Below are positions 47,105-62,567 of a DNA stretch of 64,000 nt, piece by piece. A model generated the notes under the pieces. The model saw only the letters and a program-made list of their open reading frames with translations. It did no database searches and was not told where the DNA came from. A program made the translations under genes and the position numbers. The stretch comes from Corallococcus macrosporus DSM 14697 (GTDB taxonomy: Bacteria; Myxococcota; Myxococcia; Myxococcales; Myxococcaceae), in contig NZ_CP022203.1 in assembly GCF_002305895.1 (NCBI RefSeq), forward strand, positions 5,682,501 through 5,746,500, given 5' to 3'. Positions within the stretch are counted from its first letter, which is position 1, and every line of letters starts with the position of its first letter.

Positions 47105-48814
47105 TCAGCAGTCCACCGGCCCTTTCACCGCCGTGACGGTGGCTTCGATTTCTTCACACCCACCCAGCGTCTTCGCCCCGTTCGACGCGAGCTTCAACCC
47201 CAGGCGCTCGCCCACCTGGACATCCGCGCCGGTGCGGACCACCGCGCCGTCGCGCTGGCGGAACACCACCGAATAGCCCCGCGACATCACCTTCAACGGG
47301 CTCATGGCGTCCAGACGTCCCTCCAGACGCTGGAAACGCTTCTGTGCATCCGCCAGGGCCCCCTGCTGGAGCGCCAGCAGCCGCGCCCGGTGCGCGGCCA
47401 GCCGGGCACGCTCGCGCGCCACCTGCCCCGCCGGCGAGGCCCGCTCCAGCCCCAGCCGCGCCGTCGCCAGCGCGCCGTGCCGGGTCGCCACACCTGCGCG
47501 CACCGCCTCCGACAGCCGCATGGCCAGCTTCAAGAGGTGCGCCCGCTGTTCACCCAGGCGCGCCTGGGGACGCGCCCGCTGCAGCCGCTCCGTCAGCGCC
47601 CGCAGTTGCTCACGGTGCCCACGCACCGCGGGCCGCAGCACGCGCATCATCGACTCCACCTGCTCGGACAGGTGCAGCCGCTGGTGGTTGATGGCCCGGC
47701 GCGGGTCCTCCAGGCGCGACGCGAGCTGCCCCTGCTCCTCGCGCAGCTCCAGCACCCGCCGCTCCATGGCGCGCCGCAGCCGGCCCGCCTGCGTGGCCAG
47801 CGTCAGCTCCAGGTCCGCCAGCACGGGCGCCAGCCGCTCCGCCGCGGCGCTGGGCGTGGGCGCGCGCAGGTCCGCCACGAAGTCGGCGATGGTGAAGTCG
47901 ATTTCGTGGCCAATGGCGGACACCACCGGCACCGGCGAGGCGAAGATGGCGCGGGCCACCCGCTCCTCGTTGAAGGTCCAGAGGTCCTCCACCGAGCCAC
48001 CCCCGCGCGTCACCACGATGACGTCCACGTCCGTGCGCGCCAGCCGCTCGATGGCGCGGGCCACCTCCACGGCGGAGCCTTCACCCTGCACGCGCGCGTC
48101 CGCCACCAGGACGCTCTGCCGCGGGTTGCGCGAGTGCAGCACGCGCAGGAAGTCCTGGAGCGCCGCGCCGGTGCGGCTCGTCACCACGCCGATGCGCCGG
48201 GGCAGGAACGGCGGCGGCCTGGGGGGACGCACCCGCCCGGGCCCGATGAGCCCCTCCTGGGCCAGCCGCTCCTTGAGCTGCTCGAAGGCCAGCGCCAGCG
48301 CGCCCTCGCCCACCGGCTCCAGCCGCTGGACGATGAGGCTGTAGCGGCCCTGCGGCTCGTAGAGGTCCACGCTGCCTTCGGCGATCACCTCCATGCCGTC
48401 GCGCAGCGCGAAGCGCAGCCGGGCCGCCATGGACGCCCACACCTTGGCGTCAATGGCCGCGCCCGCGTCCTTCAGGGAGAAGTACCAGTGCCCCCGGGCG
48501 TTGGGCCCGCGGAAGCCCGTCACCTCGCCGCGCACGATGACGCGGGCGAAGCGCGACTCCAGCGTCTGCTTGAGCTGGCGGGTCAGCTCGCCCACCGACA
48601 GCACCACGCGCTCGGGCTTGGGCGGCGGCGGTGGCGCGCCCTCCATGGGCCCCAGGAGCGAGGTGCCGTCCTCCTCCACCGGCGGCGGCGGCCTGGGCGC
48701 CGCCGACTTCCGCGCGGCCGTGGGCGCACGCGGGGTGGAGGCGCCACCGCCAAACAGGTCGCCCTGCTGGCCCACCGGCGGCGGCGTGCCGCCTCCCACC
48801 TTGCGCCGGGTCAT
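47105..48814 (-). CDS. xseA: Exodeoxyribonuclease VII large subunit
   Basis: A 569-residue nuclease subunit. Residues 1-70 are an added Pro/Gly-rich region. Then comes an OB fold (VLSVGELTRQLKQTLESRF; GRGHWYF-like ARGHWYFSLKD), the catalytic domain (GVVTSRTGAALQDFL; VVTRGGGSVEDLWTFNEE; SAIGHEIDFTIADFVAD), a long coiled coil and a C-terminal strand region (MSRGYSVVFRQ). The ATG at 48814 overlaps the stop of the FHA gene by 4 nt (ATGA), tying DNA repair to the Tad-like genes in one transcript. Confidence 0.95.
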   Translation of the reverse strand: MTRRKVGGGTPPPVGQQGDLFGGGASTPRAPTAARKSAAPRPPPPVEEDGTSLLGPMEGAPPPPPKPERVVLSVGELTRQLKQTLESRFARVIVRGEVTGFRGPNARGHWYFSLKDAGAAIDAKVWASMAARLRFALRDGMEVIAEGSVDLYEPQGRYSLIVQRLEPVGEGALALAFEQLKERLAQEGLIGPGRVRPPRPPPFLPRRIGVVTSRTGAALQDFLRVLHSRNPRQSVLVADARVQGEGSAVEVARAIERLARTDVDVIVVTRGGGSVEDLWTFNEERVARAIFASPVPVVSAIGHEIDFTIADFVADLRAPTPSAAAERLAPVLADLELTLATQAGRLRRAMERRVLELREEQGQLASRLEDPRRAINHQRLHLSEQVESMMRVLRPAVRGHREQLRALTERLQRARPQARLGEQRAHLLKLAMRLSEAVRAGVATRHGALATARLGLERASPAGQVARERARLAAHRARLLALQQGALADAQKRFQRLEGRLDAMSPLKVMSRGYSVVFRQRDGAVVRTGADVQVGERLGLKLASNGAKTLGGCEEIEATVTAVKGPVDC

Positions 48815-50565
48815 CGAGACAGCTTCTCGACCCAGGACTTCGCCTTCCCGTGGTACTCGTCGTCGGGCGGCGTCATGGCCACCACGTCCCTGAACTTGGG
48901 CAGGGCCTCGTCGGGGCTCCCGTCCTTCAGGGAGTAGGCCTGGAGGTAGACGTCCTTCGCCTTCGCCCTGAGCTCCGAGATGATGTTGGACGCGCCCGCG
49001 TGGCCGGGGTCCGCCTGCAGCGCCTTGCGCGAGTAGTCCATGGCGCGGCTCCACTGGCCCGCCGCCTTCGCGCCCGCGGCGCTCTTGTAGAAGATGGTGG
49101 CGGCGCGCGTGCCCGCGTTGCGCGCCATCTTGCTGGGGCGGCCGCCGGTGATGTTCCTGTCCAGCGCCATCAGCTTGGACAGGCCCTTGGCATCCAGGTC
49201 CTCCAGCCGCTTGTACAGGTTGCCGAACTCGGTCACCTGCCCCAGCACCTTCTTGCACTGCTGCGTGCGCGCCATGCACGCGTTGAGGATGGCCACTGCG
49301 CCGGACATGTCACCGTCGCGGAAGCGGTCGACGGCGGGCTCCCACGGCTTGGGCGCGGGCCCCTGGACCACGGGCCTGGGCGTGTCACGGACGATGATGG
49401 CCTGCGCCGCCTGCTCGTTGATGAGCTTCGCGTCGCGGTGCTCCGGGAAGGCCATCAGGACGTCGTCGGTGATGGCCTTGGCCATGTCGAGCTGGTTCTC
49501 GTCCAGCAGCTTGCGGGCCTCGAGCGTGCGCGTGTCCGCGGCCTCCGAAAGCGCGCGCTTCGCGGCGTTCACCTGCTCGTAGAGGAACTGGCTCTCCCCC
49601 GTGGCGGCCAGCAACGTGCCGGCCTTGCCCAGCTCCTTCTTCGCCAGGGCGTCCTGGGCCGCCATCAGCTTCTCCTGGACGGGAATCTCCCGCGCGGCGT
49701 GCCCGAGGTAGTCCGCCACGCCCGGGTACTGCGGGGCCTCCGCCTGGAGTTCTTCCAGCTTGGCCTTCGCCTCGACCCACTTGCCCTCGCGCACCAGGTT
49801 CTTCGCGTCCTGGAACAGGCCTCCCAGGAAGGCCCGGCGGTCCTTGCCCTGCTGGGCCTCCTCCGCGGCCGCCTGCTGCTGCTTCTGGACGTTCATCCGC
49901 ACCACGCCCAGCCCCGCGAACAGCACCACCACCGCGCCCACCGCGCCCAGCTTGATGAGCTTCTTCTTCTTCAGCTCCTCGGGCGAGGGCGCCGCGGCCG
50001 CCGACGAGCGCGCGCTGCGCACGCGGCCCCCCTCCGGACGGGGCCCCGGACGGGGCGGCACCGCGCCGCGGCTGCCAGAGGCCGCCGGACGGGGACGCGG
50101 TCCGGGCGCGGCCGCGGGCGAACTCACCATCATCGTGGAGTTGGCCACGTCCTCGAAGCGCAGCTCCGTGTCGCCCAGCGTGATGACGTCGCCGTTGGCC
50201 AGGGGCGTCTCGTCGCTGATGACGTCGCCGTTGATGAGCGTGCCGTTGCCGGAGCCCAGGTCGCTCACCGCCCAGCCCCCGCCCACCTTCCGCACCATGA
50301 CGTGCTTGCGGGACACGGAGGTGTCCGGGATGCAGATGGCGTTATCGGTCGCTCGCCCGATGACGTACTCCTCCTCGGACAGGGCAAACTCCTCACCATC
50401 CTTGGGGCCAGCGATGCAGATGAGCCGGGCCGCGGACGAGACGGGGGCGGGCGCGGGCCGGGCGGACGTCCTGCGCACGGCGGGACGGGACCCGGTCCCA
50501 CCCGTGGGCGCCCCCGAGGGGGGCCTGCGGCGTGCCGGAGGGGAACCGTTGGACATGCGAATCAC
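48811..50565 (-). CDS. FHA-domain protein with a membrane anchor and helical repeats
   Basis: A 584-residue protein (GTG 50565; ATG 50556 is an alternative). Residues 1-45 are Pro/Arg-rich. Residues 48-140 are an FHA phosphothreonine-binding domain (EYVIGRATDNAICIPD; SVSRKHVMVR; DLGSGNGTLING). Residues 145-200 are a Pro/Ala linker, 205-225 a transmembrane helix (LIKLGAVGAVVVLFAGLGVV), and 230-584 a helical, TPR-like periplasmic part. FHA proteins read kinase signals, and myxobacteria have many Ser/Thr kinases. It lies between the second FHA gene and xseA. By position it belongs to the Kil-like Tad cluster; the partner is not known. Confidence 0.87.
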   Translation of the reverse strand: MIRMSNGSPPARRRPPSGAPTGGTGSRPAVRRTSARPAPAPVSSAARLICIAGPKDGEEFALSEEEYVIGRATDNAICIPDTSVSRKHVMVRKVGGGWAVSDLGSGNGTLINGDVISDETPLANGDVITLGDTELRFEDVANSTMMVSSPAAAPGPRPRPAASGSRGAVPPRPGPRPEGGRVRSARSSAAAAPSPEELKKKKLIKLGAVGAVVVLFAGLGVVRMNVQKQQQAAAEEAQQGKDRRAFLGGLFQDAKNLVREGKWVEAKAKLEELQAEAPQYPGVADYLGHAAREIPVQEKLMAAQDALAKKELGKAGTLLAATGESQFLYEQVNAAKRALSEAADTRTLEARKLLDENQLDMAKAITDDVLMAFPEHRDAKLINEQAAQAIIVRDTPRPVVQGPAPKPWEPAVDRFRDGDMSGAVAILNACMARTQQCKKVLGQVTEFGNLYKRLEDLDAKGLSKLMALDRNITGGRPSKMARNAGTRAATIFYKSAAGAKAAGQWSRAMDYSRKALQADPGHAGASNIISELRAKAKDVYLQAYSLKDGSPDEALPKFRDVVAMTPPDDEYHGKAKSWVEKLSR

Positions 50566-50592
50566 CGACTTCCTGTCGAAGGGAGCACGCGC

Positions 50593-52047
50593 CTACAGCT
50601 CGTGCTCGTAAGCCAACTGCAAACCTAGATTGTGGCAGCGATGCTCGGCTGTAGGGAAGCGGCGACCCATTTCCTGCAACGCGGCCCGAGCCGTCCGCGC
50701 GTTCCGGTACTGTACGCTGCGTTGGAAATCGAGCATCAGCTGGCTGCACTTGTGGTCCAGCTCGGCTGCTACCTGACCGAGCTGGAAGCGGACGTCCTGA
50801 TAGATGTCCGGCTTCGTGTCCAGCGCCTCCAGCGTCACCCACGCGAACCGGTACTGCTGCCACGCCTTGAAGAGGTTCTCCGCGCCGACGTCGCGCGTCT
50901 CATAGAAACGCGCGGCCGCTGACACGTACTGGCGCGCCTTGGCCAGCAGCTCCTCCTGTGGGAGCTCCGGCACGGGGATGATCTCCAGGCGCAGGTTCCA
51001 CACGCGCCAGGTCTCCCGCCCCGGCGGGTTGCGGACGTTGTCGAAGACGAAGGAGTTGAGCTCGCCCCGCTTGAGCGCGCTCGGCGGGAGGATCTGCTCC
51101 AGCCCGCGCTCCGTCGAGGCGTTCACGTCCGGCGGCACCCAGCCCACGTCCACGCCGTTGACGACCAGCGACACCTCCTCCTTGGAGATGCCACTGGCCA
51201 TGTAGTGCACCACCGCCACGGCCCGCGTCGGGGTGACGAACTCGAAGGCGAACGACTTGTGGTCCGGGTTCTCCCACGTCACGCCCTCGCCCACCCCGAA
51301 CGAATCGGAGATGAGCTCGAAGGTCAGGTCCTGCGGCTCCGCGCCAGAGGCGCGGCCCTCGCCCACGGGCATGAAGATGACGGCCAGCACGCCCACCAGT
51401 GCCAGGACCAGGCCGCTGCCCACGGCGCCCACGCCCAGGCGCGCCGGCGTGGAGAGCTGGCCCCACCACAGCAGCAGCCTGCCCGCCGGGCTGTTCGACA
51501 GCTCCCGGCGGCGGCGCGCGCGGTCCGCCGCGGACAAGCCCTCGCCGGGCTCGGCCCTGGCCACGGCGGCCGTGCCCGGACGCACCGGCACCACCGCGGG
51601 CTGCTGCGCGGTGGGGAAGCCCTCCGGCAGCACGATGCCGCTGGCGGCGGGCACCGGGTCGTTCAGGCGGATGGGGCGGGTGGCGTCCGGGTCAACGGGA
51701 GGGAGGGGGTCCCCCCGGCGGATGGGCCGGGTGGCGTCCTCGTCCCCTTCCGGCGGCACCCAGACGAAGGTGAACTCCACCGGGCCCACGCCAATCTTGT
51801 CCCCGTCCCGGAGCTGCTGCTCTCCGGACAGCAGGCTCCCGTTGAGCACGGTGCCGTTCGAGCTGCCCATGTCCGCGACGTAGTACTTGTCGTCGCGGAG
51901 CACGATGCGGGCGTGTTGGCGCGACACGCCGTGGTCGTGCAACACCAGGTCATTCTCCGAGGTGCGGCCGATGTTGACCTCGGCCGACTCGAAGGTGAGC
52001 TCCCGTCCTGTCTGGAGCCCCTGGGTGATGGTCAGGAGGATGGGCAC
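50593..52047 (-). CDS. FHA-domain protein with single transmembrane helix and periplasmic domain
   Basis: A 484-residue protein. Residues 1-95 are FHA (ILLTITQGLQTGRELTFES; VNIGRTSENDLVL; VSRQHARIVLRD; DMGSSNGTVLNG), at the very N-terminus. Residues 100-195 are a polar linker with two DPDATRPIR-type threonine-containing repeats (DATRPIRRGDP and DATRPIRLNDP), which could be phosphorylation targets. Residues 205-230 are a transmembrane helix, and 240-484 are periplasmic. It starts at GTG 52047, 6 nt after tadC. Two FHA proteins next to TadB/TadC suggest phospho-control of the assembly platform (inference). Confidence 0.87.
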   Translation of the reverse strand: MPILLTITQGLQTGRELTFESAEVNIGRTSENDLVLHDHGVSRQHARIVLRDDKYYVADMGSSNGTVLNGSLLSGEQQLRDGDKIGVGPVEFTFVWVPPEGDEDATRPIRRGDPLPPVDPDATRPIRLNDPVPAASGIVLPEGFPTAQQPAVVPVRPGTAAVARAEPGEGLSAADRARRRRELSNSPAGRLLLWWGQLSTPARLGVGAVGSGLVLALVGVLAVIFMPVGEGRASGAEPQDLTFELISDSFGVGEGVTWENPDHKSFAFEFVTPTRAVAVVHYMASGISKEEVSLVVNGVDVGWVPPDVNASTERGLEQILPPSALKRGELNSFVFDNVRNPPGRETWRVWNLRLEIIPVPELPQEELLAKARQYVSAAARFYETRDVGAENLFKAWQQYRFAWVTLEALDTKPDIYQDVRFQLGQVAAELDHKCSQLMLDFQRSVQYRNARTARAALQEMGRRFPTAEHRCHNLGLQLAYEHEL

Positions 52048-52053
52048 GGGGCG

Positions 52054-52944
52054 CTACCCCGAGATGTTTCCGAACATGAACTGGAACACGATGGGCCCGA
52101 ACAGCACCATGAACACCGTGGGGAAGATGCAGGCGATGAGCGGGAAGAGCATCTTCACCGGCGCCTCGCCCGCCAGCTTCTCCGCGCGCTGGGTGCGGTC
52201 GATGCGCATCTGCGTGGACTGGATGCGCAGCACCTTGCCCAGGCTGGTGCCCATCTTGTCGGCCTGGATGAGCGCGGTGACGAAGGTCGTCAGCGGCGGC
52301 AGGTCCACGCGGACAATCATGCTCTTGAGGGCCTCTTCACGCGTCTTGCCCATCTTGAGCTGCTTGAGCACGAGCTGCAGCTCCTCGCGCAGCGGCCCCG
52401 GCTTGCCCTTCTCCACCACCTTGGCCAGCGCCGCGGTGAAGTCCAGGCCCGCTTCCACCGACAGCGTCAGCAGGTCCAGGCTGTAGGGCAGCGCGCGGCT
52501 GATGAGCAGGTGGCGCTTCTTCACCTGGTCGTTCAGCCACATCAGCGGGTAGTACATGCCGAAGAGCAGGAACAGCGGTGACCACACCAGGCTCACGCCG
52601 AAGCCGTTGAGCAGGATGAAGCCCATGAGGAGGCCCACCACCGCGCTGACTTCCTGCAGCGCCATGATGTCCTCGGGCTTGTACGCCTGCGGCTCGCCCG
52701 CCTTGATGAGGTTGCGGCGCGCCTTGGCCTCGTAGCCGGGCCACATGAAGCGGCGGTTCATCGCGCCCAGGCGGCGGATGGCCACCGAGCCGACGCCCTT
52801 CATGCCGCCCGTGGACTCGTCACGGACCTCCGACAGGAAGCGCTCCAGCATCGTCTGGTACAGGCCCAGGCCCAGGAAGCCCACGGCGCCCGCGAAGAGG
52901 AGCGCCGAGCTGCCGATCAACATTGGCGTCAGGACATCGTCCAC
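52054..52944 (-). CDS. tadC: TadC-like inner-membrane platform protein
   Basis: A 296-residue T2SSF-family membrane protein that forms the base of Tad/type IVb pilus-like machines with TadB. It has an N-terminal helix (SSALLFAGAVGFLGLGLY), a cytosolic T2SSF domain (RALPYSLDLLTLSVEAGLDF; LKSMIVRVDLPPLTTFVTAL; ADKMGTSLGKVL) and two C-terminal helices (PLIACIFPTVFMVLFGPIVF). AGAGGTG precedes the GTG at 52944. It follows tadB after 10 nt. Matches the KilG/KilH pair of the M. xanthus Kil system. Confidence 0.93.
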   Translation of the reverse strand: MDDVLTPMLIGSSALLFAGAVGFLGLGLYQTMLERFLSEVRDESTGGMKGVGSVAIRRLGAMNRRFMWPGYEAKARRNLIKAGEPQAYKPEDIMALQEVSAVVGLLMGFILLNGFGVSLVWSPLFLLFGMYYPLMWLNDQVKKRHLLISRALPYSLDLLTLSVEAGLDFTAALAKVVEKGKPGPLREELQLVLKQLKMGKTREEALKSMIVRVDLPPLTTFVTALIQADKMGTSLGKVLRIQSTQMRIDRTQRAEKLAGEAPVKMLFPLIACIFPTVFMVLFGPIVFQFMFGNISG

Positions 52945-52954
52945 GGTGCACCTC

Positions 52955-53800
52955 TCAGATATCGATGTTGACGATGCGCCGGATGATGAGGATGCCCATC
53001 ACTTCCATGATGGCGATGATGATGACGAGGATCCATCCGAAGATGTGGTTCATCATCGGCTCCATCAGGTCGGGCCGCATGTAGTTGAGCACCATGCCGA
53101 GCACCGCGGGCATCGCCGCGACGATCCACCCCTGCAGCTTGCCCTGCGAGGTGAGCGCGTCGATCTTGCCCTCCAGACGGAAGCGCTCGCGGATGACCGT
53201 GGAGATCGTCTCGAACATCTCGGCCATGTTGCCGCCGAGCTGACGGGCGATGTTGGTGGACACGACGACGAGCTCCAGGTCGTCACTGCCCACGCGGCGG
53301 CCCATGTTGATGAGGGCCTCCTCCAGCGGCACACCCAGCTTCACTTCCTTCACGAAGAGGCCGAACTCCTGGGACAGCGGCGGCAGCGCCTCGCGCGCCA
53401 CGTGCTCGATGGCCTGGGGGAACGTGAGGCCGGCCTTGAACGCGTTGGCCATGGCCTGCAGCGCGTCCACGAGCTGCACGTTGAACTTCTTGATGCGCCG
53501 CTTCCGGTAGTGCTTGACCATCAGCATCGGCAGGAAGAAGCCGAACACCGTGGCCACCACCGCCATGATGGGGTTGAAGATGATGTACGACAGGATCCCC
53601 GACAAGCACATGCACGCGATGTTGAGGATCAACATCTGCCGTGGATCGATGAAGAGGAACATGTCGCTCAAGTCGTTCATCGACTTGGCGACGTAGCGCT
53701 CCTGGTACTGCTCATACGCCTTCGACAGGACGCTGAAGATCACCAGGCTGAAGAAGAAGACCGAGCCGGTGACGAGGAGGAGGACGATTCCAGCAAGCAT
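52955..53800 (-). CDS. tadB: TadB-like inner-membrane platform protein
   Basis: A 281-residue T2SSF-family protein, partner of TadC. Helices at residues 2-22, 55-95 and 225-280 flank a cytosolic T2SSF domain (VQLVDALQAMANAFKAGLTF; QAIEHVAREALPPLSQEF; LGVPLEEALINMGRRVGSDD; IARQLGGNMAEMFETI), all classical TadB landmarks. It is 41 nt after cpaB. The matching motor ATPase (TadA/CpaF) is not in this window. Confidence 0.93.
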   Translation of the reverse strand: MLAGIVLLLVTGSVFFFSLVIFSVLSKAYEQYQERYVAKSMNDLSDMFLFIDPRQMLILNIACMCLSGILSYIIFNPIMAVVATVFGFFLPMLMVKHYRKRRIKKFNVQLVDALQAMANAFKAGLTFPQAIEHVAREALPPLSQEFGLFVKEVKLGVPLEEALINMGRRVGSDDLELVVVSTNIARQLGGNMAEMFETISTVIRERFRLEGKIDALTSQGKLQGWIVAAMPAVLGMVLNYMRPDLMEPMMNHIFGWILVIIIAIMEVMGILIIRRIVNIDI

Positions 53801-53841
53801 GTGCGCGCTTCCCTAAGAGCGAGGGTGGACGACGCACGCCA

Positions 53842-54657
53842 TCACGGCGCGCCGGCGCCCGCGGCCCGCTCGGCACCGCCCTTGATGATCTGGATGATTT
53901 CGCGGCGCTTCTGCTCCAGCACGCGGGTGCGCTCACCCGACAGCAGCGTGCTGATGGTGGCGCGGCCGCGCTCCTCGATGAGGTCCACGTCGTCCTCGTT
54001 GCGGAGGCTGAGCGTGAGCTGGCCGAGCTCCACCGCGAGGACGAGGATCTCCGCCTCTTCCGGCAGCACCATCAGCGAGATGTTGCTGTACTCGCGCTGG
54101 TTCTCCGGGATGAGGTTCACGTTGGTGGTGCCGGTGATCTTGCCCGTGGCCACCACGATGACGTTCTGGAGCAGCGTCACGGCGACGCTCTCGTCCGTCT
54201 GCGGATCGCGGAAGGTGCCAATCACGTCCACGTGGTCATTGGGGCGAATCCAGCCGCCCACCGACGTGGTGTGCTTCGCCTCGATGGTGAGCGCGCGGGC
54301 CTTCTTCTGCACCTTCGAGGACAGGCGCTCGGCGGCCTTGGTCGTCTCGAACTGGCTCCACAGCAGCGGGTCACCCGCCTGCAGCGCGACCAGCACCTTC
54401 TGGTTCACGATGTAGGACGCGGAGTCCGGACGCACCACGGAGGACGTCACGAACTGCTCGGGCACCGAGCGCTGGGAGATCATCTCGAAGGTGATGACCG
54501 TGCCTTCAGGGACGTCCTGCGCCGCCACGACGACGGGCACCAGGTTCCATCCGCGGCGGACATCCGCCTCCTTCTTCTTGATGGCGGAATACGCGATGAC
54601 GCCGGCCAGCAGGCCCAGCACGAGCGCGACGACAAGCGGAGTCTTGCCCTTCAGCAT
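53842..54657 (-). CDS. cpaB: CpaB/RcpC-like periplasmic pilus assembly protein
   Basis: A 271-residue protein with an N-terminal anchor (TPLVVALVLGLLAGVIAYSA) and the SAF/RcpC domain (VPVVVAAQDVPEGTVITFEM; KHTTSVGGWIRPNDHVDVIG; TVTLLQNVIVVATG-like region). CpaB connects the outer-membrane secretin to the inner platform in Tad systems. The ATG at 54657 follows a 204-bp gap with a good promoter candidate, so cpaB probably opens the transcript cpaB-tadB-tadC-FHA-FHA-xseA and onward. Confidence 0.93.
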   Translation of the reverse strand: MLKGKTPLVVALVLGLLAGVIAYSAIKKKEADVRRGWNLVPVVVAAQDVPEGTVITFEMISQRSVPEQFVTSSVVRPDSASYIVNQKVLVALQAGDPLLWSQFETTKAAERLSSKVQKKARALTIEAKHTTSVGGWIRPNDHVDVIGTFRDPQTDESVAVTLLQNVIVVATGKITGTTNVNLIPENQREYSNISLMVLPEEAEILVLAVELGQLTLSLRNEDDVDLIEERGRATISTLLSGERTRVLEQKRREIIQIIKGGAERAAGAGAP

Positions 54658-54772
54658 GGTTCAGGAACCTCCAGAACGGGGGGGAGCCGTTCGGCGGCGA
54701 TGCGTGGAGTCCGAAGTGGAGTCCAGAGCGAGTGTTGGAATACAGTGCAATGCAATCTGCGGATGGCGCGTG

Positions 54773-54802
54773 ATGTTAGCCGTGCGATACACCGGGTGTC
54801 AA
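54773..54802 (-). promoter_or_regulatory. Sigma-70-type promoter upstream of cpaB
   Basis: On the minus strand TTGACA (54802-54797) and TAACAT (54778-54773) are separated by 18 nt. This is the best -35/-10 pair in the accessory part of the window. The leader to the cpaB ATG would be about 110 nt. Confidence 0.5.
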
Positions 54803-54861
54803 AACCACCTCTCGCGACAGCTCTGTATCGCGCGCAATCCGGGACTTGACGCCGCGCGGCG

Positions 54862-55599
54862 TCAGAGGTCGTCGATGTCCTCGCGGTCCTCTGACGTCAG
54901 GCCGTGGCTCTCGGTGATGCTGTAGAGGGCGTGCTGCACCACGCCGACGTCGTCCAGGCTGTCGATGACCTTCCCCTCGAGGAGGCGCAGCAGCTCCTGG
55001 AGGGCTTCATCCGAGGTGACGTTGCCGACCCGGTAGGTGATGTACGGGTTGGACGGGTCCAGCGCCTCGTTGAGGCAGTACATGTTGAGGGGGACGATGA
55101 AGGCGTTCTCCTCCACCCCGCCGTCCGGCGTGCCGGCATCGTCCCGCCCGCCGGGCCCAGGAGGCGTGGGCGGCACGGTGATGATGGTGCGCTCGATGAG
55201 CAGCCCGTTCTGGCCGCGGCCCTCGGAGGTGGACACGACGATGAGCCCCGGCGGGAACACCACCTCGACGGGCGCGCCGGTGTCGTTGCGCAGGGGCACG
55301 CAGACGCGGACATAGGTCCCCGAGCCGCTCGACTCCGTCCCGGGATTCTGACACTCGCCCGTGATGTCATCGGCGCCAACGGTGGTGCCCGCGTAGCTGA
55401 GGCCCTCCGGGAGGGTGAAGGGCGTGCCCTCCGGCTCTCCCTCGTCGTCGCCCAGGCCGGGGCGGAAGACGTTCGTCCCCGCGTCGAGGCCGTTGATGGG
55501 CGGCGGGTTGTTGGGCCCGCCGCCGCCGCCGTCGCATGCCATCACCCCTGCCCCAACCGCCGCCGCGACGACCATCCACTTCCATGCCGCCTGCGCCAT
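54862..55599 (-). CDS. Predicted lipoprotein of the Tad-like cluster
   Basis: A 245-residue lipoprotein with signal WMVVAAAVGAGVMAC (Cys at about 22), followed by a Gly/Pro-rich flexible stretch and a beta-rich body (YVRVCVPLRNDTGAPVEVVF; NGLLIERTIITVP) with a helical C-terminus (VGVVQHALYSITESHG). GAAGGAG lies 6 nt before the ATG at 55599, a strong ribosome site. I do not recognise the family. It sits between the prepilin-like genes and cpaB, so it could be a pilotin-like or outer-membrane accessory; this is inference. Confidence 0.83.
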   Translation of the reverse strand: MAQAAWKWMVVAAAVGAGVMACDGGGGGPNNPPPINGLDAGTNVFRPGLGDDEGEPEGTPFTLPEGLSYAGTTVGADDITGECQNPGTESSGSGTYVRVCVPLRNDTGAPVEVVFPPGLIVVSTSEGRGQNGLLIERTIITVPPTPPGPGGRDDAGTPDGGVEENAFIVPLNMYCLNEALDPSNPYITYRVGNVTSDEALQELLRLLEGKVIDSLDDVGVVQHALYSITESHGLTSEDREDIDDL

Positions 55600-55715
55600 G
55601 CTGCGCTCCTTCCATCACTCCAGGACGACCCACCGGCCGGGACCGCCGCGTCATGTGGTCCGGCGAGACTGGCTGAGTCTCAAGGCACCCGCAACTGCGC
55701 TGTTTGCGCGGGCTG

Positions 55716-56462
55716 TCAAGGAGTGTGCGGAAGCGCCTGCTGCGACGGAGGCGGCAGGTCCGGGTTGTACAGGCCTCGGAGCACCAGCGGCGCGCCCTGG
55801 TCATCCTCGAGGAGCACCGGCTGGCCCTTTTCGAGCCCCACCAACCGCACCGTGAAGCCCACCCCATCCGGCGTCACGTGCACCGCGAGCTGCCCTGGCA
55901 CGAGCGGCTCCGGCAGCGCGGACTCGGAGGGCAGCCAGGCGAGCTGGGGCAGCACCGGGCGGAAGGCCCGCGTGAAGACCCGCGCCTCGCTGGCGCCGGA
56001 CTGCTGGAGCGCGGCGCGCCACGCGTCCTGGGAGCGGGGGGTCTCCCCGTGGGACTGGAGCTCGTGCACCATCTGCAGGTGGACGCGCCGGGCCACGCGG
56101 AGCAGCTCCAGGTTGGCCGCGACCTCGGAGCGGGACTGCTCCAGGCCCTGCGGCTTGCCGCCGGCCAGGGTGGCCATGACGCCCAGGAGGATGCCCCCCG
56201 ACGCCCACAGCGGCGCGGACCGGCCCCGCACCAGGTCCCAACCCAGGCGCACCGTGCCCACCACCGCCAGCAGCGCGCCGGCCAGCACCAGCCAGCGCGG
56301 CGCCCCGCCCGCGTGGAAGGGCTGGCGCAGGGCCTGGGCCAGGTGCGTCCACTCAGGGACGGACGCCACCACCACGCCCGCGGCGAAGGCGAGGAACAGG
56401 GCCGCGTGCACCAGCCGCAACCCCAGGGGGGACGGCTGGCCGACGTCGCTACCGACCGTCAC
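55716..56462 (-). CDS. Membrane protein of unknown function in the Tad-like cluster
   Basis: A 248-residue protein with three hydrophobic helices in the first 105 residues (VHAALFLAFAAGVVVASVP; WLVLAGALLAVVGTVRLGW; ASGGILLGVMATLAGG), then a hydrophilic alpha/beta domain (VARRVHLQMVHELQSHGE; QLAVHVTPDGVGFTVRLVG). The GTG at 56462 overlaps the stop of the small prepilin-like gene, so the two are coupled. Longer upstream readings are out of phase with that gene and rejected. Function unknown. Confidence 0.8.
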   Translation of the reverse strand: MTVGSDVGQPSPLGLRLVHAALFLAFAAGVVVASVPEWTHLAQALRQPFHAGGAPRWLVLAGALLAVVGTVRLGWDLVRGRSAPLWASGGILLGVMATLAGGKPQGLEQSRSEVAANLELLRVARRVHLQMVHELQSHGETPRSQDAWRAALQQSGASEARVFTRAFRPVLPQLAWLPSESALPEPLVPGQLAVHVTPDGVGFTVRLVGLEKGQPVLLEDDQGAPLVLRGLYNPDLPPPSQQALPHTP

Positions 56463-56686
56463 GGGAACGGCAGGTTCAGCACGAAATAGAAGGAGTCGTA
56501 ATAAATCTGGTACGCCTCCAGGAACAGGTCGATGACGTTGGACTGACGGTCCTCCGACCACCGGACCTTCACCGACGCGCCCACGATGAGCGCGACGACG
56601 AGAATCCAGTTCAGGAGCGAGTACTCCAACATGGCCTGCCCGCGACGGTTACGGGCGCGGGAACGCAGCGTCTTCGGGTGGTTCAC
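56459..56686 (-). CDS. Small Flp-type prepilin-like protein
   Basis: A 75-residue protein: basic leader RSRARNRR, then G|QAMLEYSLLNWILVVALIVG. The Gly followed four residues later by Glu-Tyr is the hallmark cleavage and +5/+6 motif of Flp (type IVb) prepilins, and the 20-residue hydrophobic helix follows directly. The C-terminus (VIDLFLEAYQIYYDSFYF) is aromatic-rich, unlike Flp pilins. Both ends overlap neighbours by 4 nt. It may be a minor pilin or the filament subunit of this Tad-like system; a leader of about 17 residues is long for Flp but acceptable. Confidence 0.75.
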   Translation of the reverse strand: MNHPKTLRSRARNRRGQAMLEYSLLNWILVVALIVGASVKVRWSEDRQSNVIDLFLEAYQIYYDSFYFVLNLPFP

Positions 56687-57492
56687 GGCGAGTCCTCAGA
56701 GGTGTCGTGTCCGTGCCCGTCGTCCGCGGCGCCGGGCAGGTCATCGAGTATAGCATCCGCGTACTCCAGACGGACCTTCGGTGCGTCCGGCGCGGGGATT
56801 CGCATGCGGGGCTTGGCGTCGATTCCGTACTCCGCCACTTCCATCGAGTGACCGATGCCGGGAATCTCCATCTTGGCCAGGTTCAGCAGCGGAATCTCGC
56901 GGCTGAGCCACATCCGCTTGATGACGGTGCTCTTCAGGACGACCTCGACGGGGACGGCGGCCACGGTGCCCGCCAGCGTCATCAGCCGGGTCTCCTTGCC
57001 CGAGCGCGCCACGGGCTTCAAGCCCCCGGGCAGCCTGGGCGGCGTCTTGGGCGCGGCGGCCTGCGCGGCCTTCGCGTCCTCCTGCTGCTGCTTCAAGACG
57101 TGCTGGAGGGCCTCGTCCGAGTACTCCTGGGGCGGGCTGAAGCCCGCGCCGATGTAGAGGCGGGAAATCGCGTCGTAGCGAATCACGTCGCCCTCCCGGG
57201 CCACCAGCATGCGCATCTGCGCGAGCGGCGACTTCATGGCCGGATGGGTTCCCGCCTCCATCTCCACCCACACCGCGTCCCGGCCCTCCTTGTCCTTCTC
57301 CTCGCCCACCACCGCCAGGCGCCAGTAGTACACGCGCAGGCCGCCGCCGTTGAAGCGGTACGTCACCCAGTCGCCCATCCGGGCGGCGCGGGCGCCGCGG
57401 GACATGTGCTGCACCAGCTCCCGCGCGGGATTCGCCTCCACGCGCGAGGGCATGGCCAGCACCAGCGCGGCCACCACGAACAAGGCCCTCAC
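56683..57492 (-). CDS. Exported protein of unknown function
   Basis: A 269-residue protein with signal peptide RALFVVAALVLAMPSRVEA, and a body with GDWVTYRFNGGGLRVYYWR, a Gln/Ala-rich helix around residue 135, and SREIPLLNLAKMEIPG. The C-terminus is Asp/His-rich (DDGHGHDTSED), possibly metal-binding. The GTG at 57492 overlaps the upstream stop, and the 3' end overlaps the Flp-like gene. I do not know the family. Tight coupling to prepilin-like genes on both sides suggests a role in the same machine. Confidence 0.8.
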   Translation of the reverse strand: MRALFVVAALVLAMPSRVEANPARELVQHMSRGARAARMGDWVTYRFNGGGLRVYYWRLAVVGEEKDKEGRDAVWVEMEAGTHPAMKSPLAQMRMLVAREGDVIRYDAISRLYIGAGFSPPQEYSDEALQHVLKQQQEDAKAAQAAAPKTPPRLPGGLKPVARSGKETRLMTLAGTVAAVPVEVVLKSTVIKRMWLSREIPLLNLAKMEIPGIGHSMEVAEYGIDAKPRMRIPAPDAPKVRLEYADAILDDLPGAADDGHGHDTSEDSP

Positions 57493-58271
57493 TTCGCGCC
57501 CTCCTTCTTCGAGGCCTGGTCCTTCTCATAGGCCTCGCGGCTCTGGCGCACGGCATCATCGTTGGGCACCGCGTCCGGCCGGTCCGAGCCAATCCACATC
57601 TGGACCACGGCGGTCATGCCCTCGTCGGCGGGGGCCAGGGTGGTCACCACCTGCTCGCCCTTGCGCGCGTGCTCCATGGTGAGCTGCGTGCCGCCCCCCA
57701 CCGTGAGCGCGGACTGCCGCACGGGCTCATAGCCGCGGCGCTCCAGCTCCTTGTTCACCTGCTGCTGCACCTGCGTGAACTCCCCCGACACCAGCGTGGT
57801 GCGGCTCTGCGAGCCGCCCGGGTCATCCCGCGTGGCCAGGTCCTGGGAGTAGAGCGCGCCTTCCAGCGCCACCAGGCCGGGCGCCGGCTTCTTGGGCGGC
57901 CGCACCCACAGGTCGCGCAGCACCGAGAACCCCAGCGTCTTGCCCAGGTGCTTGCGCAGGACGATGCCGCGCTGGAGCCCCTCGCGGGTGTAGAGGGCCG
58001 ACACCACGCCCTCGTCCTTCATGTCCCCTTCAATCACGGTGGGGTAGCCCTCTTCCTGCCACTTCTGGGCGAAGTAGGCGGCCACCTTCTCCATGGAGTC
58101 CGGCGTCGTGAAGTACGCGAGGCGGTAGTACTCGCCGCCAATGACCAGGTCGTTGCCGATGCGCGTGTGGAGGGTGCCCGGGTAGATGGGCAGCTCCTGC
58201 TCCGCCGCTGCTGGCACGGTGGCCAGCAGCAGGCACAGCAGCGCCGCCCGGAGGGCCGCGCTCCTACTCAC
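57489..58271 (-). CDS. Exported protein of unknown function
   Basis: A 260-residue protein starting at GTG 58271 (AGAAGG 6 nt upstream) with signal peptide RAALLCLLLATVPAAAEQ. The mature part has YYRLAYFTTPDSMEKVAAYF, RGIVLRKHLGKTLGFSVL and a second half with QVQQQVNKELERRGYEPVR, giving an impression of two similar alpha/beta units (a helix V-x-x-x-F/E... followed by G-Y). An earlier in-frame ATG would overlap the upstream pseudopilin by over 30 nt and is less likely. Function unknown. Confidence 0.8.
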   Translation of the reverse strand: MSRSAALRAALLCLLLATVPAAAEQELPIYPGTLHTRIGNDLVIGGEYYRLAYFTTPDSMEKVAAYFAQKWQEEGYPTVIEGDMKDEGVVSALYTREGLQRGIVLRKHLGKTLGFSVLRDLWVRPPKKPAPGLVALEGALYSQDLATRDDPGGSQSRTTLVSGEFTQVQQQVNKELERRGYEPVRQSALTVGGGTQLTMEHARKGEQVVTTLAPADEGMTAVVQMWIGSDRPDAVPNDDAVRQSREAYEKDQASKKEGAK

Positions 58272-59457
58272 AGGGGACCTTCTGGTCTTGCTCGTCATTC
58301 CGCGTGGACTCCGGACGGGATTCCGGGTCGGACGGGTCATCGGCCATGGCCCGCTTGCACCCCATGTAGAACTCACCGCGCGCGTTGAAGACCTTGATGT
58401 AGTTGCTGTCGCCGTAGGTCATCTCGTCGCGGAAGGGCGCGGTGTCGAAGCAGTCGGGCCGGTCGTGGTCGGTGAGCTCGAAGCTGCGCTTGTGCATGAC
58501 GTGCAGACCGCTGCTGGCCCTGGCGTCGTATTGGGCCAGGCCGTTGCAATCGCCCTTCTGGGAGTCGCCCACGCCGTAGTTCCGGGACACCACAAAGGTC
58601 CCCAGGAAGTTGGGAACCACCTTGGCCACCACATCCAGGATGCGGCCAATGCCCAGGCTGTCCAGGGTGGAGGCGAAGCCCAGGAAGACCATGCGGTCCA
58701 CCTGCCGATAGAGACCGTGGGGCTGGCTGAGCGAACCCGCGGTGTGCTGACCGGCGCGGCGGCTGCGGACAATGGCGTCACCGCCGTCCGGCATGTGCCA
58801 GCCGTTGGCGTACATGGAGTACTTCGACTTCATCCGCAGGCTGCCCAGGTCGCGGCCGCCCATCATGTCCTCTTTGAAGAAGCCACCACTGCCCCCGCTC
58901 TGGTCCAGATAGCTCGTGGGCAGGATGACGTTCTCGTAGGTCATCTCGATTTCGGACTCGACCCAGCCTTTGTTGTTGAACCCCCACTGGTCCAGCACCC
59001 ATCCCATGCCGTTGTTCAGCGGGCTGAGGATGGCGCCCGCCAGGCCGCCTCCCTCGCTGGTGCTCGGGCGGCTGAGCATGCCGCTCTCCAGGAGGGCAAT
59101 CTCCTTGTTGGTGATGGTGGCCGTCACATCCGTGTAGCGGGCAATGAAGTTGCCCCCAGGGCCATTGGGCTCCACCGAGTCCATGTCCTTGAAGCGCTCG
59201 ATGAACTCCTCGTGGGCCTCCTGGCGGGCGTCCTCGAAGGCGGCGTCGTGCTTGCCATTGGCGAAGTCGGAGAGCGCGTAGCTCGTCATCTCCCAGACGG
59301 CGTACCGCGCCGCCTCCTGGAGCTTGAGCTTCGCCCTCACCAACTCGGTGAGGTACATGCTGAACATCAGGATCATCACGAGGAGCGGCACGGAGAGCGC
59401 GAACTCGACCGTGGCGGCACCTCGTGAGCGGGAACGCAGTTGGAGACGGGCACGCAT
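58264..59457 (-). CDS. TadE-like large pseudopilin
   Basis: A 397-residue prepilin-like protein: basic leader RARLQLRSRSR, then G|AATVEFALSVPLLVMILMF, with Glu at +5 as required for prepilin processing, and a TadE-type amphipathic continuation (YLTELVRAKLKLQEAARYAV). The large C-terminal domain (residues 60-397) is soluble and has several Cys. Large TadE-like subunits with big C-terminal domains are the pseudopilins (KilK/L/M) described for the Kil prey-killing system; I cannot say which one this is. It is 8 nt after the next pseudopilin and overlaps the downstream start. Confidence 0.85.
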   Translation of the reverse strand: MRARLQLRSRSRGAATVEFALSVPLLVMILMFSMYLTELVRAKLKLQEAARYAVWEMTSYALSDFANGKHDAAFEDARQEAHEEFIERFKDMDSVEPNGPGGNFIARYTDVTATITNKEIALLESGMLSRPSTSEGGGLAGAILSPLNNGMGWVLDQWGFNNKGWVESEIEMTYENVILPTSYLDQSGGSGGFFKEDMMGGRDLGSLRMKSKYSMYANGWHMPDGGDAIVRSRRAGQHTAGSLSQPHGLYRQVDRMVFLGFASTLDSLGIGRILDVVAKVVPNFLGTFVVSRNYGVGDSQKGDCNGLAQYDARASSGLHVMHKRSFELTDHDRPDCFDTAPFRDEMTYGDSNYIKVFNARGEFYMGCKRAMADDPSDPESRPESTRNDEQDQKVPCE

Positions 59458-59465
59458 GGCGGTCC

Positions 59466-61556
59466 TCAGTGCGTAATGATCTTCGGGGCAATGCCCTGAA
59501 GCGGGCCGGGCAGCGCGTCCATCATCTCACCAATCTTCGGCAGTGAGTTGCGGCCCTGGAACACGGACGCCAGGCGAGGGCGCCAGTACGGATTGAAGAA
59601 GTTGGGCTGCTCCGCCCAGTTGCCGGGACGGTGGTAGTAGGTCTGACCGCGGGAGATGACGTTGAGGCCTTCCACCAGGCCCAGGAACTTCTTCCGGTTG
59701 TTCAGCATCTCCAGCCCATCCGTGTCGGGCGTGAAGGCGAACTTCACCTTGCCTTCATCGTTGAGCAGCGCCGGCGCGTTGGTGCCCGTGCCGTCCTTGT
59801 TCTCCCGGTTCACCACCTGGTCCGGGTCCTTGTTCAGCGCGACCCAGGCCGTGGGCTGGTTGAAGTCCGCCGTACGCTTGGCGGCGTCCGACATGGAAGC
59901 GTTGGCGGTGGGGTTGCACACCGAGCCGAGCTGGCCGGGCTCGAAGTGCATGAAGGGCGTCAGCCCGCCCCAGGGGTGGTTGCCGTCCTGGACCGGCCTG
60001 ACGTTGGCCGCGTAGACGCGCGTCCTGACGACGCACGCCCCCAGGACCCTGGCCAGGCAGAACCTCGGGTCCTCATACAGACCGACCACGCCCTCGGCGC
60101 GCCGTGGACGCACGTGGCCCACCCAGCGCTCCGGGTTGTCGTAGTAGTTGACGCGCCAGTGGAGGCCACCCCGGGTCCCACCACTGTCGTGGTCGTTGAG
60201 CGCCCAGATGCTGGTCTTCGTCATGTGCTTGTAGGGCAGCTTGGCGCTCCCGCGGGCGGAGTCCCCCTTGCCCTTGCGATTGTCGCCGAAGCAGCGCCAG
60301 TAGTTGTCGTCCTTGTTGCACGACAGCGGGTTGTCCGCCTTGGCCACGCCAATGTCGATCTCCGCGGGGCCGAACTTGAGCCAATACGGGTCATCCGAGC
60401 CGATGTTGTCTCCCTGAGCCGTCATGCCCCAGGGATGGAGGTTGTCGTTCCAGTCCCGGATGTAGTTGCGGGCGTCGTTGCCAGGGCCCCTGCCCTTCTT
60501 CAGCGCGGCCGCGTTGGGGAACCCCGTGGAGAGCATGCGCGTCTGGCCGAGCTTCCCGAAGCTGAAGACCGGGGTGTCGATGCCATCGTTGAACAGGTCC
60601 CTCATGAAGCCGAGCATGTCCGGCAGCGGCAGCAGGTCCCCCATGCGGCGGCTGGTGATGAAGCCCTGAGGACACGCGCCTCCCTGGGCGTCGCAGCCGT
60701 AGCGCGTGGCGTTCGTGATGCCGCCCATGGAGCGCTTGGCCCGGGCGATGGGGTCATTGCGGTCCTTCTTCGTCACATCCAGCGCGCCGAACGGGTTCTT
60801 CCACGTGTTCGGCGCGAGCGGCTTGCCGCCCGAGTAGGGGCTGTGTGCCTGGCTGAAGAGGCACTGGCTGTAGAGCCCCGTCGCCAACTGGCTGGCCAGT
60901 GAGGAGATGTTGCTGTCGTTGTCGTCGATGACGGTCTGCGTGGTCTGCGTCACGTGCGTCGACGCGGACATCATCACCGCCTGGGACGCGAAGTACATCA
61001 CCCCGTTCAGCACGCGGTGCGCCGGGATGAGCCACTTCCCAATCTTGTCGTCCGGGTTCAGTCTCCGGATGACCTGCTGAATGGGTCTGAGGAACGAGTT
61101 GCGATACGCGTCCATGATACGGCCAATGGCCTTGATGACGGCGCTCACATAGGGAATGACGTTTTCCAGGATGGGACAGGCGACCGTCCAGAAGATGCCG
61201 CTGGGTGTGCCTGAACACGGATTCAACGTCTTCATGAAGCCGAAGATGTCCGTGAGGAACGCCTCGGCGGAGTAGATGAGCGACAGCAGCGACTGCCACA
61301 TCATCGCCGACACGTAGTGAGACACCTGCGTGCGGTTGGCGTACGCGTAGAAGTTGAACGCGCGCGCCTCCATGGCGGCCATGGAGTACGAGGCCGCGTC
61401 CGCCGTGTTCTGCAGGCGGATGCGCTCATGCACCGTGTGGCCGATGTTGACCGTGGTCAACACGGCGATGGACATGACCAGCACCATCAGGGCGGCCAGA
61501 ACCAAGGCCTGGCCTTCCTGGCGGCGGAAACTCTGTCGGAGGGTCCGGGTGAACAT
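59466..61556 (-). CDS. TadG-like large pseudopilin without the +5 glutamate
   Basis: A 696-residue protein with a leader RTLRQSFRRQE, then GQALVLAALMVLVMSIAVLT and the Tad-domain signature ERIRLQNTADAASYSMAAM (Q-N-x-A-D-A-A). The +5 position after Gly is Leu, not Glu, as in many TadG proteins, so processing is less certain. The large extracytoplasmic part contains further hydrophobic stretches (residues 85-190), then a long soluble, Trp/Asn-rich domain (HPWGMTAQGDNIG; THMTKTSIWALNDHDSGGT-like). It is between two TadE-like genes. It is one of the largest TadG-like proteins I would expect. Confidence 0.83.
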   Translation of the reverse strand: MFTRTLRQSFRRQEGQALVLAALMVLVMSIAVLTTVNIGHTVHERIRLQNTADAASYSMAAMEARAFNFYAYANRTQVSHYVSAMMWQSLLSLIYSAEAFLTDIFGFMKTLNPCSGTPSGIFWTVACPILENVIPYVSAVIKAIGRIMDAYRNSFLRPIQQVIRRLNPDDKIGKWLIPAHRVLNGVMYFASQAVMMSASTHVTQTTQTVIDDNDSNISSLASQLATGLYSQCLFSQAHSPYSGGKPLAPNTWKNPFGALDVTKKDRNDPIARAKRSMGGITNATRYGCDAQGGACPQGFITSRRMGDLLPLPDMLGFMRDLFNDGIDTPVFSFGKLGQTRMLSTGFPNAAALKKGRGPGNDARNYIRDWNDNLHPWGMTAQGDNIGSDDPYWLKFGPAEIDIGVAKADNPLSCNKDDNYWRCFGDNRKGKGDSARGSAKLPYKHMTKTSIWALNDHDSGGTRGGLHWRVNYYDNPERWVGHVRPRRAEGVVGLYEDPRFCLARVLGACVVRTRVYAANVRPVQDGNHPWGGLTPFMHFEPGQLGSVCNPTANASMSDAAKRTADFNQPTAWVALNKDPDQVVNRENKDGTGTNAPALLNDEGKVKFAFTPDTDGLEMLNNRKKFLGLVEGLNVISRGQTYYHRPGNWAEQPNFFNPYWRPRLASVFQGRNSLPKIGEMMDALPGPLQGIAPKIITH

Positions 61557-61577
61557 GGGTCGGGAGTCCTCTTCCTC

Positions 61578-62567
61578 TTACAGGCCCCATTCGGGGTTCA
61601 GGTGCATGATCCACTTGCGGTGGAAGTTGGACTGCATGCGCATGCTGTACGTCGCGGTCAGCGGCATGAAGTACCGCTTGCCAGCCAGATCGGAAACGAT
61701 GGGGACGCTGCCGTTGGCCAGCATCCAGAGCACGGTCATCTCGAGCGGATAGACGGAGTCGTACCCCATCTCGTGTTCGATGCCGCGGGCCCCCGCGAGC
61801 AACGGGGTGAGATTGCCACGCCGGTTCATCATGTTCGCGCGCGGGTCCACGGTGCTGCGGTCGATGGCGCCTCGCAGCGCCATGCCCGCGTTCGAGGCGA
61901 ACCACGAGTAGAAGATGATGGCGTTCGCGAAGGGTACGCGGAGCTGGTACCAGTAGCGCAGGCGGATGGTCAGCCGGGTGGACTTGCGGAACACCAGCTC
62001 CGCGTCGTCCGGCTCCGGCAGGTTGAAGAACTTGCGGATGTGGTTTTCGAGCGTGGGCACCTCCGGGAAGGAGTCCGCGCCGTCGAAGTCCAGCTCCTGC
62101 CACGCAGCGCCGCTGCGCAGCTTCCACAGCGAGTCAATGGGCGTGAAGTACGCGGGGCTGACGGTGTCCACCCGGATGACGCCGAACAGGTTGGACCCGT
62201 TGACCGTCCGGGGCACGCGGCCACCGCCGAAGTTCAGCATGCGCATGCCGGAGTCGTAGAGCTGGTGCAGGACGAACGTCTTGCCCAGCTCGACGATGTC
62301 GTCGGTGCGCCCCATGGTGGGAAGCAGCGCCACGATGGCCGCGTCGTGCATGCGCTCGTTGTTGCCGTTCCACACGATGCCGGCACGCGCGGCCTGGTAG
62401 GCGGCGTACTCCGTCATCAGCTTGGCGTGCTGCATCATCGTGAGCTGGATGATCCCCAGCGTCATGAAGACGGCGAGCGGCATGATCATGGCCGCTTCGA
62501 CGGCGGCCTGACCCGACTGCCGGCGAGACGCCCCCTGCGCTCGCGATTCCTGTGCTTCCTGTCCCAT
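61578..62567 (-). CDS. TadE-like pseudopilin
   Basis: A 329-residue prepilin-like protein: polar leader ending RRQS, then G|QAAVEAAMIMPLAVFMTL with Glu at +5, and TadE-like TMMQHAKLMTEYAAYQAARA. The C-terminal region is a soluble domain of about 270 residues (TRLTIRLRYWYQLRVPFANA; GYDSVYPLEMTVLW). It is the first gene of the prepilin-like series; no strong promoter is evident in the 97 bp upstream (only an isolated TTGACC and GATAAT with wrong spacing). Confidence 0.86.
   Translation of the reverse strand: MGQEAQESRAQGASRRQSGQAAVEAAMIMPLAVFMTLGIIQLTMMQHAKLMTEYAAYQAARAGIVWNGNNERMHDAAIVALLPTMGRTDDIVELGKTFVLHQLYDSGMRMLNFGGGRVPRTVNGSNLFGVIRVDTVSPAYFTPIDSLWKLRSGAAWQELDFDGADSFPEVPTLENHIRKFFNLPEPDDAELVFRKSTRLTIRLRYWYQLRVPFANAIIFYSWFASNAGMALRGAIDRSTVDPRANMMNRRGNLTPLLAGARGIEHEMGYDSVYPLEMTVLWMLANGSVPIVSDLAGKRYFMPLTATYSMRMQSNFHRKWIMHLNPEWGL

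Follow-up and report, generated by a model that had tools for sequence, protein, structure and literature searches.

Kil gene cluster II of Corallococcus macrosporus and an undescribed exported protein family linked to the Tip sets of Kil pili

Contact-dependent killing in Myxococcus xanthus requires the Kil system, whose gene cluster II comprises MXAN_4648-4661 and whose KilG, KilH and KilB proteins are essential (PMC8460266, eLife 2021; PMC12075869, Nat Commun 2025). The three cluster II pseudopilins have since been renamed Tip4 (KilL4, KilM4 and KilN4), with KilK as the tip adapter; Tip trimers of KilLMN were modelled confidently by AlphaFold, and the loading of one among several alternative tips on the killing pilus was called unclear (PMC12075869). 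Here we analyse a window of 64,000 nucleotides from Corallococcus macrosporus DSM 14697 (NZ_CP022203.1, positions 5,682,501 to 5,746,500; the genome is a single contig of 8,973,512 bases), which holds the orthologue of this cluster, and describe a protein family that accompanies the Tip sets of Myxococcota. Genes are labelled 4648 to 4661 after the equivalent positions in M. xanthus, and the family is named after its member at position 4657. Three adjoining minor pilins with prepilin cleavage motifs are taken as a Tip set, and KilL4, KilN4 and KilM4 form one.

The locus is the orthologue of Kil gene cluster II

Thirteen genes at 48811-62567, all on the minus strand, are arranged as the initial annotation had described, and Pfam matches together with sequence motifs bore out its assignment of TadB, TadC, CpaB, three TadE/G-like pseudopilins, a Flp prepilin and two FHA proteins. 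The four proteins that it had listed as exported or membrane unknowns are indeed of that kind, 4653 having a lipoprotein signal, 4654 being a membrane protein and 4656 and 4657 having signal peptides, and none of the four has an accepted Pfam family. A fourteenth gene (62665-64041) crosses the window edge and completes the 14-gene cluster as published. Gene set and order are identical to those of cluster II: KilK, two genes, KilL, KilN and KilM occupy exactly positions 4655, 4656-4657, 4658, 4659 and 4660. In addition, a record of M. xanthus AM003 (L089) has all 14 genes; protein identities are 78-99%, apart from 63% for the anti-sigma-like one.

No motor ATPase, secretin or prepilin peptidase is encoded in the cluster, as had been noted, nor in the 20 kb past the window, and genome-wide all 11 ATPase-family matches are distant from the cluster. 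A complete ordinary Tad locus is rejected, there being no ATPase nearby. The secretin and ATPase genes expected elsewhere were found in cluster I, about 2.1 Mb away. Neither best hits outside the MXAN_4648-4661 set, as judged by M. xanthus AM003, nor a complete Tad locus with its own ATPase just past the window turned up. Because of the Pfam matches, the gene order, the M. xanthus AM003 orthologues and the presence of cluster I elsewhere, the region is, with near certainty, the orthologue of Kil gene cluster II, as the initial annotation had supposed. Cluster II and its split from cluster I thus belong to an already known system, and the further suggestion that the unnamed genes are unstudied parts held for two of the four.

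Record BNCN01000007.1 (L088), titled Comamonas sp. KCTC 72670, also carries Kil cluster II in its entirety, with protein identities of up to 99%, and is probably a mislabelled Myxococcus genome.

The 4657 family accompanies Tip sets throughout Myxococcota

The exported protein 4657 is a member of an undescribed family. When the protein at 57489-58295 alone was searched against 145 genomes of the order, it retrieved clear cluster II orthologues and a tail of weak matches elsewhere, mostly at 24-36% identity. All 19 of the weak-match places examined adjoin KilM/KilN/KilL at other loci, often with the match lying between KilL and a short Flp. Chance was rejected as the source of these matches, every one of them adjoining a trio. 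Even with the threshold relaxed to E<=10, the family profile matches just four places in the window's genome, each at a different Tip set, a distribution on which a general periplasmic protein was likewise rejected. As a check against circularity, the profile was rebuilt without the other three copies of this genome and run against 1,584 open reading frames; it recovered the three left-out copies at E 1.1e-24, 4.4e-23 and 4.7e-17, and the next open reading frame scored 0.05.

The 4657 family and KilM were then located independently in 25 genomes, giving 86 and 90 copies, respectively. A KilM adjoins 83 of the 86 family copies, and for the remaining three the contig has no KilM match. Under a nearest-KilM rule, 78 copies share a strand with KilM and are found 2.3-3.9 kb downstream of it; one more (L116) becomes canonical once paired with the right trio, bringing the copies in canonical order to 79, and four adjoin KilM in another order. 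Within seven single-contig genomes, every family copy (32/32) lies inside a Tip set. The conserved order is M-N-L-4657-(Flp), and a 4657-type gene stands between kilL and the adapter Flp in both Tip3 and Tip4. Moreover, distances within the family track those of KilM, KilN and KilL (r 0.97-0.98), a correlation that partly reflects the split between cluster II and the other copies, yet is 0.97-0.98 outside cluster II too. Across 195 Myxococcota genomes, KilM and the 4657 family are both present in 132, both absent from 53 and found one without the other in 10 (the family alone in two and KilM alone in eight, several of these eight being weak matches), counts that share ancestry and so are not independent. 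Physical linkage at paralogous loci is a line of evidence separate from these genome counts, and we hold it highly likely that the 4657 family is tied to Tip sets.

The association between this family and Tip sets throughout Myxococcota is new here. Neither MXAN_4653, 4654, 4656 and 4657 nor a fourth Tip-set gene is mentioned in the main text of the Kil papers or in the literature searched, although a supplementary synteny figure may show one; as far as main texts show, the one-per-Tip factor is undescribed. The literature search also gave no relevant paper tying a periplasmic chaperone to TadE/TadG pilins.

Predicted folds of 4657 and 4656

The signal peptide of 4657 is cleavable, and some paralogues seemingly have an N-terminal anchor in its place. 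An AlphaFold2 model built with 19 natural sequences predicts two units, each of the form strand-strand-helix-four-strand, and profile comparison supports this internal duplication (hhalign E 1.3e-6). The best structural match of the second unit is DcrB (VIA; Z 10.5, root mean square deviation (rmsd) 2.2 A over 89 residues), followed by PA1624 (Z 10.0), SciW (9.8), EagT6 (9.0) and PsbP (8.3). The first domain has the same strand-helix order, and the fold match rests on the second, which as modelled has a DcrB/PsbP-like fold. At the sequence level, Pfam and NCBIfam scans gave no named family for 4657 or 4656, comparison of their profiles with the sequences of solved structures gave nothing credible, and the Eag/DcrB profile (DUF1795, PF08786) matched none of 23 family members at E<=0.5.

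Relatives of 4656, found with a cluster II profile, stand beside several other Tip sets (E 1e-12 to 2e-3), not at every Tip, and nowhere else among the called proteins of the loci examined. Its likeness to a LolA/LppX/RseB-like fold, in which a helical lid covers a curved beta-sheet, is weak (best Z 6.0 at rmsd 6.0), and the model is poor, with a predicted local distance difference test score (pLDDT) of 65.

Possible roles of 4657

Before type VI effectors are exported, Eag chaperones such as SciW and EagT6 hold and stabilise their transmembrane helices (PMC7773334). The alpha1N helices of Tip pilins would face a problem like that of Eag clients, in that they must exit the membrane and enter the filament base. 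Because of the predicted Eag-like fold and this similar problem, we propose that 4657 may be a Tip-dedicated periplasmic chaperone or loader, a role suggested by linkage and fold whose chances we put at about even. Taken as a whole, the picture of a Kil cluster II in which 4657 acts as a Tip-dedicated periplasmic factor, likely an assembly chaperone, seems to us fairly probable. More tentatively, each Tip of Kil-type Tad pili might have its own member of a family of periplasmic chaperones, Tip-specific and tandem DcrB/PsbP-like, which would assemble or select the killing tip.

Cluster II encodes the KilG/KilH platform, KilB and the Tip4 minor pilins of a prey-killing Tad-type pilus, with cluster I supplying the ATPase, secretin and peptidase from elsewhere. 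In the proposed mechanism, the exported 4657 would sit on the outer side of the inner membrane and bind its own KilL/M/N trio, either at the hydrophobic alpha1N helices or at the base, before passing this trio to the adapter Flp, KilK or KilO, and to the growing KilP pilus; the chaperone activity, its target and the hand-over are the parts that we infer.

Several points weigh against a chaperone. Likeness of fold says nothing certain about the function of 4657: PsbP and DcrB share the fold, yet we know of no helix chaperone activity for either, and Eag proteins act in the cytoplasm, whereas 4657 is proposed to act in the periplasm. The model has a mean pLDDT of 75 and a predicted template modelling score of 0.56, with good matches for the second domain only. 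The correspondence with Tip sets also has its gaps, in addition to the shared ancestry of the genome counts. Three trios in the seven single-contig genomes are without a 4657 copy; two of them belong to genus g6, and the other is the second trio of a tandem pair in G112. The clearest exception is a KilM-N-L-KilK set without a family gene at L106 (genus g6), and L116 and L111 have one copy per two neighbouring trios. Finally, the published AlphaFold Tip trimers form without the 4657 protein (PMC12075869).

The confidence of those models as trimers (PMC12075869) also speaks against a second explanation, in which 4657-family proteins would serve each Tip as a fourth structural subunit, exposed together with KilL/M/N at either the end or the base of the pilus. 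Such a subunit would fit the single copy per Tip, the shared operon and the tracking of pilin distances. However, instead of a prepilin leader with a G/xxxxE motif, family members have an N-terminal anchor or a cleavable Sec signal, so that 4657 does not thread into the filament in the way of a pilin, and we regard a structural subunit as unlikely. An immunity or self-protection protein against the cognate Tip would be expected to be exported, Tip-specific and encoded directly after the tip genes, all of which is true of 4657, and Tip4 kills without the type III secretion system T3SS* (PMC12075869). Against this, a copy accompanies each of Tips 1-3, which do not kill alone. Toxin systems commonly have orphan immunity genes, whereas no orphan copy of the family occurs in the seven single-contig genomes, making immunity an improbable role. 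Very doubtful, too, is the idea that 4657 and 4656 carry cargo of a hydrophobic or lipid nature (an effector or a lipid) for delivery via the tip: the predicted folds do resemble binders of hydrophobic ligands (DcrB/Eag for 4657, weakly LolA/LppX/RseB for 4656), but no gene for a cargo can be seen, 4656 is poorly modelled and some Tips have no 4656.

The occurrence of a 4657-type gene, with its chaperone-like predicted fold, at every Tip set of this genome, and at nearly all across the phylum, offers a direct and simple genetic handle on tip loading. The family also provides a sequence marker for predatory Tip sets in other genomes.

Organization of cluster II

Some gene starts were refined to positions shorter than the longest open reading frame, with 4657 starting at about 58271 and 4654 at about 56462 (Table 1). 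Four-base GTGA overlaps link the chain 4657, 4656, kilK and 4654, and the 3' end of kilL4 is overlapped by the 4657 gene; because of these overlaps, these genes are probably read as one unit.

Table 1. Genes of the Kil cluster II orthologue, in window coordinates
Gene product (position)	Coordinates	Strand	Basis
FHA protein 1 (MXAN_4648 position)	48811..50565	-	Pfam FHA 1.4e-17, TPR_19 3.8e-6; cluster II orthologues
FHA protein 2 (MXAN_4649 position)	50593..52047	-	Pfam FHA 2.5e-19
KilH, TadC-like inner-membrane platform protein (4650)	52054..52944	-	Pfam T2SSF 1.3e-19; 97% identity, M. xanthus AM003
KilG, TadB-like inner-membrane platform protein (4651)	52955..53800	-	Pfam T2SSF 1.1e-17; 99% identity, M. 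xanthus AM003
KilB, CpaB/RcpC (4652)	53842..54657	-	Pfam RcpC 8e-22, SAF 1.4e-9
Predicted lipoprotein (4653)	54862..55599	-	Lipobox VMAC
Membrane protein, last tip-cassette gene (4654)	55716..56462	-	GTGA overlap with kilK; co-inverted with tip genes
KilK, Flp-type adapter pilin, 75 amino acids (4655)	56459..56686	-	Cleavage motif RRGQAMLE; function per PMC12075869
Exported protein with signal peptide (4656)	56683..57492	-	Related genes adjoin several further Tip sets
Exported tandem DcrB/PsbP-like protein (4657)	57489..58271	-	Conserved fourth Tip-set gene; fold predicted
KilL4, TadE-like minor pilin of Tip4 (4658)	58264..59457	-	Pfam TadE 1.7e-7
KilN4, large Tad/TadG-like minor pilin with tip domain (4659)	59466..61556	-	Pfam Tad 8.6e-8; motif RRQEGQALVL
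KilM4, TadE-like minor pilin of Tip4 (4660)	61578..62567	-	Pfam TadE 7e-12; motif RRQSGQAAVE
zf-HC2 + TPR anti-sigma-like protein (4661)	62665..64000 (start 64041 outside window)	-	NCBIfam anti-sigma 3.6e-7, under its cut-off

Cluster II consists of two modules, a platform (48811-54657) and a tip cassette, KilM4-KilN4-KilL4-4657-4656-KilK-4654 (55716-62567). The cassette is a unit apart from the platform genes, because genes 4654 to 4660 are inverted en bloc between kilB and 4661 in L050, L051, L052 and L055. Lipoprotein 4653 is found in cluster II of closer relatives only and is absent at more distant cluster II loci; a relative of it adjoins a Tip set in a genome of genus g6 (L110). This genus (L106, L110; genomes of about 10 Mb) is without a cluster II orthologue of 4657.

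Hydropathy predicts a cytoplasmic FHA domain and a single transmembrane segment in both FHA proteins, at about residues 201-227 in the first, with its TPR portion outside, and about 202-233 in the second, with the rest outside. This layout (FHA in, C-terminal half out) could relay a cytoplasmic phospho-signal to the periplasm. An extracytoplasmic function (ECF) sigma factor gene (L078:38-637) directly adjoins the start of the anti-sigma-like 4661, which keeps its place beside the tip cassette in distant cluster II loci, even L064, and the ECF sigma/4661 pair may regulate cluster II.

The rest of the Kil system in this genome

Cluster I lies at about 3.651-3.658 Mb (L079:6112-13266) and contains an FHA protein, a prepilin peptidase of 165 amino acids, a secretin of 482, an FHA-ATPase of 593 and a double-FHA protein of 738. 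A KilP-like Flp candidate is found at 6323556. Three further Tip trios near 0.450, 0.883 and 1.412 Mb bring the Tip sets of the genome to four; in the trio near 1.412 Mb, a Flp of 59 amino acids, the length given for KilO (PMC12075869), comes right after the 4657-like gene. An orphan KilN-like protein with a Tad domain (L084:7995-10091; 698 amino acids) has no KilM or KilL alongside. Immediately upstream of the trio near 0.450 Mb (L081:5851-7281), and of its relatives (L109, L111, L121), is an FHA protein; that at L081:5851-7281 is an FHA-containing sigma-54 activator and a possible Tip-specific regulator.

Comparison with known systems

Kil cluster II of M. xanthus and the locus in the window have the same 14 genes, in the same order and with the same separation from cluster I, and differ in that the host here is a different Myxococcus species, which on the AM003 comparison we take as a sister of M. 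xanthus. The parallel that we draw between 4657 for Kil tips and Eag chaperones (EagT6, SciW; DUF1795/DcrB) for type VI secretion is an analogy: a like second-domain fold is predicted (Z 9.0-9.8), and both are genetically linked to the client or, for 4657, the putative client. In contrast, Eag proteins are cytoplasmic and single-domain, with a PAAR effector as client, whereas 4657 is exported and tandem, has no Pfam DcrB match, and its proposed client is a pilin trio. DcrB and PsbP (Mog1/PsbP-like superfamily) are likewise similar to 4657 in predicted fold, but no sequence similarity is detectable, and 4657 is duplicated and linked to pilus tips. As for the tips themselves, the number of Tip sets per genome ranges from one to eight or nine (G081, G083 and others), a repertoire far larger in some relatives; the four or five Kil Tip sets described in the literature are fewer than this maximum. 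Like the published KilLMN Tip complexes 1-4 with their KilK/KilO adapters (PMC12075869), this genome has Tip4 and KilK in the cluster, three more sets and a KilO-like Flp, but each set here has a fourth exported gene after kilL.
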